Shown here: positions 6,306 through 21,316 of the stretch, one piece after another
Layout: every line of letters starts with the position of its first letter
How positions within the stretch are numbered: position 1 is the stretch's first letter
Assembly (NCBI RefSeq): GCF_947648125.1
Contig: NZ_CANSMR010000011.1
Span: forward strand, 1-64,000
Length of the DNA stretch: 64,000 bases
Direction: 5' to 3'
DNA from: an uncultured Bradyrhizobium sp.
GTDB taxonomy: Bacteria > Pseudomonadota > Alphaproteobacteria > Rhizobiales > Xanthobacteraceae
The notes under the pieces: generated by a model
The model's database searches: none
Seen by the model: the letters and a program-made list of their open reading frames with translations, nothing else
What the model was told of the DNA's origin: nothing
Made by a program: the position numbers and the translations under genes

Positions 6306-6395
6306 CGTCATGCCCGGGCTTGTCCCGGGCATCCACGTCTTCTCTCGTCGCAGCAGAAGTAAGACGTGGATGGCCGGGACAAGCCCGGCCATGAC
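6306..6395. repeat. CGTCATGCCCGGGCTTGTCCCGGGCAT intergenic repeat, copy 1
   Basis: An inverted element starts with GTCATGCCCGGGCTTG and TCCCGGGCATCCACGTCTT and ends with AAGACGTGGATGGCCGGG and ACAAGCCCGGCCATGAC, so its two halves are complementary. A close copy is at 18475-18561 and a partial one at 42806-42861. Confidence 0.75.
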
Positions 6396-18474: not shown

Positions 18475-18561
18475 GTCATGCCCGGGCTTGTCCCGGGCAT
18501 CCACGTCTTCAACACCCATCGAAGGAAGGCGTCGATGGCCGGGACAAGCCCGGCCATGACG
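18475..18561. repeat. GTCATGCCCGGGCTTG intergenic repeat, copy 2
   Basis: The ends match the element at 6306-6395: GTCATGCCCGGGCTTG with TCCCGGGCATCCACG on the left, and CGTCGATGGCCGGGAC with AAGCCCGGCCATGAC on the right. Only the central ~20 bases differ. Confidence 0.75.
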
Positions 18562-18658: not shown

Positions 18659-19378
18659 ATGAGCGGGGCTGAACTTCACGCCGTTTTCGACGTCGCTGCA
18701 TGGTGCGCCGCCGCCATCGCGATGTGGTGGCTGTCCCGGGTGCGCGGGCTGCAATTCCCGCGGCAATCGTTCGAGCTGACGTATATCGCCGCGCTGGTGT
18801 TCGGCGCCGGCATCGGCGCCTACATCTTCGGCACACTGAACCTGTGGTTCTCGGGCATGCCTGGCATCGCCCGCTCGGTCGAGGGCGCGCTGGCCGGCGG
18901 CATCGTCGCGATCGAGCTCTACAAGTGGCTGCACGGCATTTCGCTGCGCACCGGGGCGCGGTTCGCGCTGCCGCTTGCGATCGGCGTCGCGGTCGGGCGG
19001 CTCGGCTGCTATTTCGCGGGGCTCGAGGATTTCACCTATGGCACGCCGACTGCGCTGCCCTGGGGGCACGATTTCGGCGACGGCATCCTGCGCCATCCGG
19101 TGCAGCTCTATGAAAGCCTGGCGATGGCGGCGTTCGCCGCCTTCTATGTCCTGATGGTGTTGAACCGCAACGCCGCCGTCATCACCAATGGATTCTACCT
19201 CGTGCTGTTCTACTACGGCCTGCAGCGCTTCGTGTGGGAGTTCATCAAGCCCTACGGCGCGCTGATCGGTCCGTTCTCGCTATTCCACCTGCTGTCGCTG
19301 TTTGTCATGGTTTATGCCGCCGTCATGCTGGCGACGGCCCCGAATGTGAGTGTGAAGCATGAACGCGCCGCTGCGTAA
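18659..19378 (+). CDS. Lgt-like (prolipoprotein diacylglyceryl transferase family) membrane protein
   Basis: This 239-residue protein has about seven hydrophobic helices and the family's landmarks GRLGCYFAG and HPVQLYES, which correspond to GRxGNF and HPxQLYE in true Lgt. It is shorter than E. coli Lgt (~290 residues). Two important Lgt positions look changed: the HGGLIG motif reads EGALAGG, and the Asn of GRxGNF is replaced (GCY). A normal diacylglyceryl transfer from phosphatidylglycerol to prolipoproteins is therefore doubtful. Its last 20 bases overlap the start of the radical SAM gene, so the two are translationally coupled. A lipid-binding or lipid-transferring partner role is my inference. 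Confidence 0.8.
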   Translation: MSGAELHAVFDVAAWCAAAIAMWWLSRVRGLQFPRQSFELTYIAALVFGAGIGAYIFGTLNLWFSGMPGIARSVEGALAGGIVAIELYKWLHGISLRTGARFALPLAIGVAVGRLGCYFAGLEDFTYGTPTALPWGHDFGDGILRHPVQLYESLAMAAFAAFYVLMVLNRNAAVITNGFYLVLFYYGLQRFVWEFIKPYGALIGPFSLFHLLSLFVMVYAAVMLATAPNVSVKHERAAA

Positions 19379-20804
19379 GTCCCGCCCCTACATCTTCTGG
19401 GGCCAGACCCAATCGCTTTGCGAGACCTGCCTGGCCCTGGTGCCGACCAAGATCCAGATATCAGGCAACGAGGTCTGGTACGAGAAGCGCTGCAAGCAGC
19501 ACGGCGTGCAGTCGACCTTGGTCTCGACCGATTCGGCCTATTGGCGGCTGTGCAAGGATTTCATCAAGCCCGGCGACCGGCCGCTGGCCTTCCAGCGCCA
19601 CACCGAGTTCGGCTGTCCCTATGATTGCGGGCTATGCCCGGACCACGAGCAGCACTCCTGCCTGGCGCTGATCGAGATCACCGAGCACTGCAACCTGACC
19701 TGCCCGGTGTGCTTTGCGGATTCCTCGCCGGCCCGCACCAGCTTCACGCCGCTGGCCAAGATCGAGAAGATGCTGGACGCGCTGGTGGCGAGCGAGGGCG
19801 AGCCCGACCTGGTGCAGATTTCCGGCGGCGAGCCGACGCTGCATCCGGATTTCTTCGCCATTCTGGACGCGGTGCGCGCTCGCCCGATCCGTCACGTCAT
19901 GATCAACACCAACGGCCTCAGAATCGCGCGCGAGCCGGACTTCGTGGCGAAGCTTGCGGAGAACAAGCGCGGGCTGGAAGTCTATCTGCAGTTCGATTCA
20001 CTGAAGCGCGAGGCGCTGGTCAATCTGCGCGGCGCGGATCTGCGCAGGATTCGCCAGCAGGCGCTGGAGAATCTCGAGCGCCACGGCGTCTCGACCACGC
20101 TGGTCGCGACCATCAAGCGCGGCGTCAACGACGCCGAGATCGGCGACATCGTCCGCCATGCGCTGACCTGGACATGCGTCCGCGGCGTCACGCTGCAGCC
20201 GGTGCAGGACGCCGGCCGCAACGAGGATTTCAACAAGGACACCGACCGCATCATGCTGTCGGAGATCCGCCGGCGCGTGATCGAGACCGGGGTGTTCGGC
20301 GACAAGGACATGATCCCGCTGCCGTGCAACCCCGAGAGCATTTCGATCGGCTACGGCCTGCGCAACGGCGACAAGGTGCTGCCGCTGACCTCGCTGATCC
20401 CGCAGGAACAGCTCGTCGCCGTGATGCCCAACACGATCAGCCCGGAAAAATATCCGGTGCTGCGGGAAAAGTTCGTCGATTTGTTCTCGCTGTCGTCGGG
20501 GCCGCTGAACACCTCTGAGCGGGTCTGCGAACTGCTGTGCTGTCTGCCGAGCTTCGAAGTGCCGGAGGGCCTCACTTACGAGAACGTGTTCCGCGTCACC
20601 ATCGTGCAGTTTCTCGATCGCTTCAATTTCTGTGTCGGCAACGTCAAGCGAAGCTGCATCCACTTCGTCACCGAGAGTGGCGCGATCATCCCGTTCGACA
20701 GCTACAATCTGTTCTATCGTGACGGAAAGATCGACGGCATCCGCGCCAGCCTGGCCGGCCAGACCTATCGGGAAGCACGGCAGGACGAGAAGGTGCCGCG
20801 ATGA
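19359..20804 (+). CDS. Radical SAM protein of the Tes/MJ0619 type
   Basis: The 481-residue protein has three sets of cysteines. N-terminal: C21, C24 and C45. Then GCPYDCGLCPDHEQHSC (C86, C90, C93, C101). Then the radical SAM cluster CNLTCPVC (C111, C115, C118), followed by ISGGEPTLHPDF, the SAM-binding GGE motif. More cysteines lie near the C-terminus (CELLCC, VKRSC). This layout matches the family of archaeal MJ0619/Tes, which carries extra Fe-S clusters and couples lipid tails in tetraether lipid synthesis; bacterial members are mostly uncharacterised. The coding sequence overlaps the Lgt-like gene upstream and, by ATGA, a small membrane protein downstream. A lipid substrate is therefore likely but inferred. 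Confidence 0.88.
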   Translation: MNAPLRKSRPYIFWGQTQSLCETCLALVPTKIQISGNEVWYEKRCKQHGVQSTLVSTDSAYWRLCKDFIKPGDRPLAFQRHTEFGCPYDCGLCPDHEQHSCLALIEITEHCNLTCPVCFADSSPARTSFTPLAKIEKMLDALVASEGEPDLVQISGGEPTLHPDFFAILDAVRARPIRHVMINTNGLRIAREPDFVAKLAENKRGLEVYLQFDSLKREALVNLRGADLRRIRQQALENLERHGVSTTLVATIKRGVNDAEIGDIVRHALTWTCVRGVTLQPVQDAGRNEDFNKDTDRIMLSEIRRRVIETGVFGDKDMIPLPCNPESISIGYGLRNGDKVLPLTSLIPQEQLVAVMPNTISPEKYPVLREKFVDLFSLSSGPLNTSERVCELLCCLPSFEVPEGLTYENVFRVTIVQFLDRFNFCVGNVKRSCIHFVTESGAIIPFDSYNLFYRDGKIDGIRASLAGQTYREARQDEKVPR

Positions 20805-21070
20805 GCGACGACAGCCGCCCCATCAATCCGGATGGATCTCCGTCCTCGCTGCCCCCGCCGCTTCCGCCACCACGCGGCGGCTGCGCGACTGCGTTCATGG
20901 TGCTGTTCGGGGTGATCCTTCTTCTGCCCGGGCTCTGCGCCCTGCTGTTCGGGTTCGGCGTCCTGAGCGAGTCGAGAACCGATCCCTCCATTCTCTTCCT
21001 GATCCTGCTCGGGCTCGCCGTCTGCTTTGCCGGCGTGATGCTGATCCGCGCCGCGATCAAGGGGAGCTAG
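20801..21070 (+). CDS. Small two-helix membrane protein, first of a paralogous pair
   Basis: This 89-residue protein begins in an ATGA overlap with the radical SAM stop. It has a proline-rich N-terminus (LPPPLPPPRGGCA), then two hydrophobic helices (residues ~28-52 and ~63-85). It shares its plan and the RGGCA / RGCA junction, LLLxPGxLC helix and GLxxxF/I pattern with the next gene, so the two look like a tandem duplication. The function is unknown; the coupling suggests an accessory subunit of the Lgt-like/radical SAM system. Confidence 0.75.
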   Translation: MSDDSRPINPDGSPSSLPPPLPPPRGGCATAFMVLFGVILLLPGLCALLFGFGVLSESRTDPSILFLILLGLAVCFAGVMLIRAAIKGS

Positions 21071-21076
21071 GACACC

Positions 21077-21316
21077 GTGAGCAATTCCGACATACCCCCG
21101 CCACCGGACCGGCCGCAGCAAGCATCGCGCCTGCCGCGTGGCTGCGCGATTTTCATGCTGATCGTCGGGGTGCTGCTGCTGATCCCGGGGGCCCTCTGCG
21201 TGGTCCTCAGTGTCACGCTGGGTGGGTCAAACGACCCAATCACCGGGTTCGCGGTGCTGGTGACGCTTGGCGGGCTCGGGCTGATTGTGTTCGCGCGGGC
21301 ACAGAAGCGGGGCTGA
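21077..21316 (+). CDS. Small two-helix membrane protein, second of a paralogous pair
   Basis: This 79-residue protein starts at a GTG six bases after the previous stop. Its order is IPPPPDRPQQ, then RGCAIFMLIVGVLLLIPGAL as the first helix and GFAVLVTLGGLGLIVFARA as the second, ending in a basic tail. It resembles the preceding protein throughout. No motif for catalysis. It is the last gene of the cluster; a terminator-like hairpin and the typA promoter region follow. Confidence 0.7.
   Translation: MSNSDIPPPPDRPQQASRLPRGCAIFMLIVGVLLLIPGALCVVLSVTLGGSNDPITGFAVLVTLGGLGLIVFARAQKRG

Follow-up and report, generated by a model that had tools for sequence, protein, structure and literature searches.

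The window, a stretch of 64,000 nucleotides from an uncultured Bradyrhizobium sp. (contig NZ_CANSMR010000011.1), carries on its plus strand a compact gene module whose parts are encoded together in many bacteria: a membrane protein with the Lgt fold, a radical SAM enzyme of the Tes family and, at the majority of loci, a mini membrane protein whose transmembrane (TM) helix contains a cysteine. In the window, lgtL (18659..19378) encodes an Lgt-like integral membrane protein of 239 residues and overlaps by 20 bp the gene for a Tes-like radical SAM enzyme of 481 residues, here called rSAM (19359..20804). The latter overlaps by 4 bp the gene for mini-protein 1 (20801..21070, 89 residues), and a 6-bp gap separates this from the gene for its tandem paralogue, mini-protein 2 (21077..21316, 79 residues, GTG start). 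These recomputed coordinates bear out an earlier sequence-only reading of this DNA, according to which the four genes overlap or lie at most six bases apart, and the motifs it had named were all found in the translated proteins of the lgtL/rSAM pair (EGALAGG, GRLGCYF, HPVQLYES, GCPYDCGLCPDH and CNLTCPVC). The module unites a relative of Lgt, a relative of Tes and a tiny protein with a cysteine at the outer end of its helix; the simplest reading is lipidation of the mini-protein. We propose, tentatively and with rather less than even confidence, a dedicated modification module in which LgtL would lipidate the TM cysteine of the mini-protein and rSAM would alter the lipid tails.

Co-occurrence of lgtL and the radical SAM gene

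Within the genus, rSAM is patchily distributed, being found at an identity of at least 87% in 30 of the 71 other genomes, and lgtL lies upstream of it in all 30 same-genus loci, the window locus included. A sample of the phylum gave rSAM (E 1e-60) in 12 of 398 genomes, six of them from the same genus (the window's own genome among them), and lgtL was upstream in 12/12; in one of these, L065, a gene of 272 codons stands between the two. The 30/30 and 12/12 counts together indicate that the pairing is not due to chance.

To these we added a wide scan that confirmed at least 569 relatives of rSAM, of which the best 80 were kept; this set is biased, because these relatives are the ones nearest L065. 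The 80 loci and 12 others (L033, L034, L036-L038 and L061-L067) make up a set of 92, from which L001-L032 had been omitted as they are counted separately, L039-L060 as duplicates or genuine Lgt, and L035 as a 37% identical paralogue without lgtL. In 82 of the 92 loci an lgtL gene shares the strand of rSAM and lies no more than 3 kb from it. By the same rule none was found in seven (L081, L086, L111, L119, L136, L137 and L142), two of which, L081 and L111, start no more than about 320 bases from the end of a contig, and the remaining three (L088, L093 and L116) have a weaker match on the opposite strand. Clustering at 70% identity reduced the set to 24 clusters, 21 of them with lgtL. The sequence-only reading had named co-occurrence in other genomes as a test beforehand, and the linkage holds far beyond the genus. 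That the two are ordinary paralogues lying side by side by coincidence might be considered, since the Lgt and radical SAM families are both large, but this is contradicted by the linkage in 12/12 and 82/92 loci and by the scarcity of other neighbour genes common to the rSAM loci, and we regard it as extremely improbable.

The 80 loci come from what we take, genus by genus, to be the Pseudomonadota, Bacillota, Acidobacteriota, Myxococcota, Planctomycetota, Verrucomicrobiota, Omnitrophota, Elusimicrobiota, Bacteroidota and Cyanobacteriota; one of them, L130, belongs to a metagenome-assembled genome titled as an archaeon. Same-strand lgtL loci occur in every phylum of the 80 except the Myxococcota, and in the L130 genome as well. 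Distances in the two proteins are correlated (Mantel r 0.78, 0 of 999 permutations as high, n=83), a value that is not corrected for shared descent. A search of plasmids gave two matches, one a complete module from Persicobacter (L195) and the other a TrsS-like gene with a methyltransferase gene.

A sample of the Bacillota contained Tes-like matches (1e-40) in 18 of 219 genomes, at 22 places. Seventeen of these are of a type we label Mss-like, our own term for Tes-like sequences of the Bacillota; L150 (from the seed genome) and L184 have lgtL, L183 has a variant Lgt-like gene, and L186 and L188 have neither. No lgtL was found at any of the 17 Mss-like loci, within flanks of at most about 1.5 kb on each side.

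The radical SAM enzyme and the changed Lgt

A profile built from 10 rSAM sequences matched Tes/GDGT-MAS (7tol) across both halves of the protein (E 7.4e-88), and the Pfam Radical_SAM domain and HMPTM zinc ribbon were detected in rSAM. In an alignment of 60 rows the rubredoxin residues C21, C24, C45 and H48, the N-terminal cluster C86, C90, C93 and H96, and the radical SAM residues C111, C115 and C118 are invariant, as are C323, C394, C395 and C433 of the C-terminal part, which are candidates for the ligands of an auxiliary cluster. The rubredoxin, N-terminal cluster and radical SAM motifs are also known from Tes, in whose structure phospholipids occupy a hydrophobic pocket (PMC9433317). rSAM is thus a full-length relative of Tes that shares its rubredoxin CxxC...CxxH and N-terminal CxxxCxxCxxH. 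It differs from Tes in scoring below the NCBIfam cut-off (NF045702, 257.6 against 450 bits), in its linkage to lgtL, and in the invariant C394-C395 pair, which has no counterpart in the alignment to 7tol. None of eight genomes with lgtL-type loci had any protein above the NF045702 cut-off. The highest-scoring NCBIfam model is instead that of the TrsS radical SAM (seleno)protein (NF045646), and here too rSAM falls short of the cut-off (302.7 against 490 bits).

In a tree of 71 rows, one clade of 49 rows (support 100/100) holds 41 sequences with lgtL and eight without. The Mss-like proteins resemble rSAM in being Tes-related bacterial radical SAM proteins; in contrast to the proteins of the module, the 17 rows of this type form a clade of their own (100/91) and lgtL is found at 0/17 of their loci. 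The tree was built without any named Mss sequence, and a long-branch warning applies to L148, L035 and L179. The L183 protein is sister to the 49-row clade; its gene has an Lgt-like neighbour with GRIGC...GCCxG and a TM-Cys mini-protein upstream. The assignment to the Tes family made by the sequence-only reading therefore stands as far as full-length relationship and cluster motifs are concerned, whereas the score below the Tes cut-off and the separate clade set the protein apart from Tes proper. For the same two reasons, the joining of lipid tails is just one option for rSAM.

Other relatives of rSAM were seen in different settings. The TrsS-like proteins at L035 and at L196 (a Mycolicibacterium vanbaalenii plasmid) are 37-38% identical to rSAM. 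Unlike the module, the L196 gene (38% identical) has an annotated methyltransferase gene next downstream, and genes for CcdA and disulfide oxidoreductase lie close by; L035 has no lgtL, and its TrsS-like gene is followed by an open reading frame (ORF) that by eye resembles a methyltransferase. L148/L189, an open frame of 779 residues that encodes a divergent Tes-like protein, has no lgtL within the 16 kb covered and comes from the same genome as the lgtL-type locus L103. Paracidobacterium has an lgtL-type copy together with a second, different Tes-like protein without lgtL.

The chemistry of Tes, the joining of inert carbons of lipid tails, is a very hard reaction. Zeng et al. put the number of Tes homologues in bacteria at 456 and suggested that they take part in making branched tetraethers (PMC8941075), and Lloyd et al. 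reported Tes homologues also in bacteria not known for biphytanyl chains (PMC9433317). The synthesis of membrane-spanning lipids has been proposed for bacterial relatives of Tes, which, as Mss, are also searched for as markers of such lipids (PMC8941075, PMC13274423). Part of the published bacterial homologues may belong to the lgtL-linked clade. A large bacterial branch of the Tes family is tied to a changed Lgt, joined at the majority of loci by a mini membrane protein with a cysteine, so that more evidence is needed before such a homologue is taken for a tetraether gene.

The substrate of Lgt is a cysteine at the outer end of a signal helix, to which the enzyme attaches a diacylglyceryl group taken from phosphatidylglycerol. 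The Pfam LGT domain (PF01790) was detected in LgtL with 67.3 bits against a gathering score of 24.9, and a second structural comparison (VIA-align) clearly recovered the Lgt fold; in a Foldseek search against the PDB, Lgt was not among the 50 matches listed, all of which had E above 0.2. LgtL falls far below the cut-offs of the two NCBIfam Lgt equivalogs (50.2 against 334 bits and 29.8 against 118.9 bits), for which the best E-value among the other 68 family members was 1.9e-21. In comparison with Lgt (PF01790, E. coli 5azb), the histidine of HGG is present in none of the 83 aligned family members, and the signature asparagine of GRxGN is a cysteine in 83/83 (Cys117 of GRLGC in LgtL, codon 19007..19009); E86 and K89 are newly invariant. 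On the other hand, R114, R190 and Y186 are kept in 83/83. The two arginines align with the normal Lgt of the host genome and correspond by motif to R143 and R239 of E. coli Lgt, as Y186 does to Y235. In E. coli, R143 and R239 are essential and located at the lipid pocket, and the histidine of HGG is essential as well (PMC4728403). The host genome (8.57 Mb) also encodes that normal lgt, with SFHGG and GRLAN, on another contig. The scores and the loss of both residues agree with the earlier view that this protein differs from a normal prolipoprotein transferase: judged by its sequence, LgtL is not a normal Lgt, and diacylglyceryl transfer by it is only putative.

Lgt-like proteins of a second kind, which have GRIGC...GCC or GRIGCFLxGCC, are encoded beside Tes-like radical SAM genes in L183 (G957:C39), L088 and L116; their genes lie downstream of the radical SAM gene or on the opposite strand.

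The mini membrane proteins and their cysteine

The two mini-proteins of the window are 40% identical and hold three and two cysteines, respectively. In an alignment of four rows, Cys46 of mini-protein 1 (LLLPGLCALLF, codon 20936..20938) and Cys28 of its RGGC stretch are invariant; Cys46 is the proposed modification site, as is, by motif and paralogue alignment, Cys41 of mini-protein 2 (LLLIPGALCVVL, codon 21197..21199). The sequence-only reading had not recognised this conserved TM cysteine. Mini-proteins with PG-x-C, in one to three copies, lie downstream of rSAM in 29 of the 30 same-genus loci, and in the thirtieth the contig ends 119 bp past rSAM. By a separate rule, the TM cysteine is present in 30/30 TM mini-ORFs downstream in these loci. 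Elsewhere in the host genome no confident further copy was found, with three weak matches at E 0.15 to 0.95. The context of the cysteine differs by group, being PGLC in the genus of the window, GFGLCG in relatives of Collimonas and LNAACFG in the Bacilli.

For the wider comparison we used a strict rule (45-200 residues, same strand, cysteine preceded by 15 uncharged hydrophobic residues), by which 66 of the 92 loci have a mini-protein no more than 0.8 kb from the pair. ORFs that fit the rule number 84 in 159 kb near the pair and 29 in 951 kb farther than 2.5 kb away in the same loci. Expressed as the share of all TM mini-ORFs, this is 84/117 near against 29/273 far (p 4e-33), the far set including ORFs that overlap other genes; with one locus per cluster the shares are 20/32 and 8/75 (p 9e-8). 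At least one TM-Cys mini-protein occurs in 15 of the 24 clusters. All three loci inspected after the rule was drawn up have one (L183, L184 and the Persicobacter L195), compared with one of the 17 Mss-like control loci.

Of 80 unique motifs, 76 have their nearest upstream basic residue 16-25 positions from the cysteine; the minimum of 16 follows from the rule itself. Over the 80 motifs, basic residues upstream peak at -20 to -24 and acidic residues slightly prevail downstream, a distribution that places the cysteine at the extracytoplasmic end of the helix. The order of basic residues, hydrophobic stretch and cysteine is that of a lipoprotein signal. Position -2 is G, A or S in 67/80, in part favoured by the choice among several cysteines: where an ORF had more than one candidate, the one with the most small neighbours was taken, so that positions -3 to +1 are biased. 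From their sequences, the mini-proteins look like a dedicated target and not like accessories.

The same proteins could be read in two other ways. One is that rSAM modifies the peptide itself, for example by a thioether or C-C link at a cysteine, as in ribosomally synthesized and post-translationally modified peptides, with LgtL as a recruiting membrane partner. Tiny, fast-changing and often duplicated proteins with a fixed cysteine beside a radical SAM gene do have precursor-like genetics, and the inner-end cysteine of the same-genus proteins would be within reach of a cytosolic enzyme; we nevertheless find this explanation unlikely, given that the nearest solved relative of rSAM handles lipids, that the cysteine common to different phyla is at the outer TM end, and that LgtL retains the arginine pair of the lipid pocket. 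The other is that no lipidation takes place and that the mini-protein and LgtL together assist rSAM as a membrane unit for redox reactions or metal binding. Conserved cysteines in both membrane proteins, the three and two cysteines of the window mini-proteins and the several iron-site motifs of rSAM would suit such a unit. Against it, many mini-proteins have a single TM cysteine and we know of no redox role for the Lgt fold, which makes it more improbable still.

Proposed function and the surroundings of the locus

In the preferred reading, LgtL would bind a phospholipid by means of its conserved arginine pair and pass a lipid group (diacylglyceryl, or acyl through Cys117) to the TM cysteine of the mini-protein, as Lgt does to the lipobox cysteine; if acyl were carried on the invariant Cys117 instead, a lysophospholipid would be left behind. 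rSAM would take hydrogen from lipid tails and form a C-C or C-S bond, either before or after the transfer by LgtL. The end product would be a mini-protein bearing an unusual, modified or cross-linked lipid. A more specific version, a protein lipidation pathway not known before in which an Lgt-derived enzyme with an active-site cysteine and Tes-derived tail coupling together would place a protein on a tail-modified or membrane-spanning lipid in many phyla, is speculative, and we consider it doubtful.

Several observations weigh against lipidation of the mini-protein. LgtL is without the histidine that is essential in E. coli (0/83) and without the signature asparagine. A classical lipobox has a small residue at -1; the mini-proteins have no such lipobox, -1 being Leu in 33/80 and Ala in 23/80. 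The TM-Cys rule was drawn up after many of the same loci had been inspected, and it presupposes at least 15 uncharged residues. By this rule 26 of the 92 loci are without a mini-protein; a looser look at these by eye, made without a control, suggested ten more; of the 16 that remain, four are at contig ends. A second cysteine (RGGC/RGC), kept at the inner helix end of the window mini-proteins, might instead be the one that is modified. Finally, a relay would be needed, because rSAM is expected to be cytosolic and the proposed cysteine is on the outer side.

The main alternative is that the pair modifies free phospholipids, rSAM joining or alkylating tails, LgtL presenting or rebuilding the phospholipid, and the mini-proteins acting as scaffolds or regulators. 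Phospholipids are the substrate of Tes and the presumed one of the proposed bacterial Mss (PMC9433317, PMC13274423), and the 26 loci without a strict-rule mini-protein would be accounted for. A further point in its favour is an LplT-like transporter fused to an acyltransferase, which lies upstream on the same strand in nine of the 80 loci. LplT as a general partner was considered and rejected: the first count was 11 loci, but the proteins at L114 and L135 proved to be unrelated ones of the major facilitator superfamily type joined to the cluster at 22-25% identity. Judged by genus or record title, eight of the nine are from Betaproteobacteria, and the title of the ninth, L084, says just Proteobacteria; three of the nine fusions were scanned against NCBIfam. 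The link fits lipid turnover; being confined to Proteobacteria, it is weak as evidence, also for the lipidation that we prefer. Modification of free phospholipids is less probable in our view, and rather unlikely overall: a scaffold would hardly need a TM cysteine kept in 30/30 same-genus mini-ORFs, this cysteine recurs in dissimilar mini-proteins of other phyla, and the Mss-like loci of the Bacillota are without lgtL (0/17) and nearly always without a mini-protein (1/17).

If the mini-protein is the target, the module would modify it with lipid and would not act on free lipids of the membrane. The earlier interpretation is supported in part: co-occurrence, kinship to Tes and the departure from normal Lgt are borne out, but the mini-proteins look like a protein target and tail joining is one option among others. 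A parallel is the MYXO-CTERM/myxosortase system, for which lipidation of an invariant cysteine next to a TM segment by an Lgt-like enzyme has been proposed (PMC11980579). Unlike the mini-proteins, the MYXO-CTERM tag is C-terminal, has inverted topology, sits on exported proteins and goes with a protease, and no radical SAM partner was seen in the accessible part of that source. The open-access literature searched on the pair or its parts gave, among the matches listed, no description of a set of lgtL, rSAM and mini-protein. The parts are members of known superfamilies, but no account of their combination with a dedicated TM-Cys mini-protein seems to exist; the module supplies a concrete and testable substrate candidate for an unassigned branch of radical SAM enzymes.

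In the window the module is flanked on the same strand by a Crp-type regulator gene upstream and by TypA/BipA downstream. Between the Crp-type gene and lgtL lies a palindrome (18475-18560) with arms of 36 nt that are 89% complementary, resembling repetitive extragenic palindromic (REP) elements, and a second copy is found in the window at 6309-6393.

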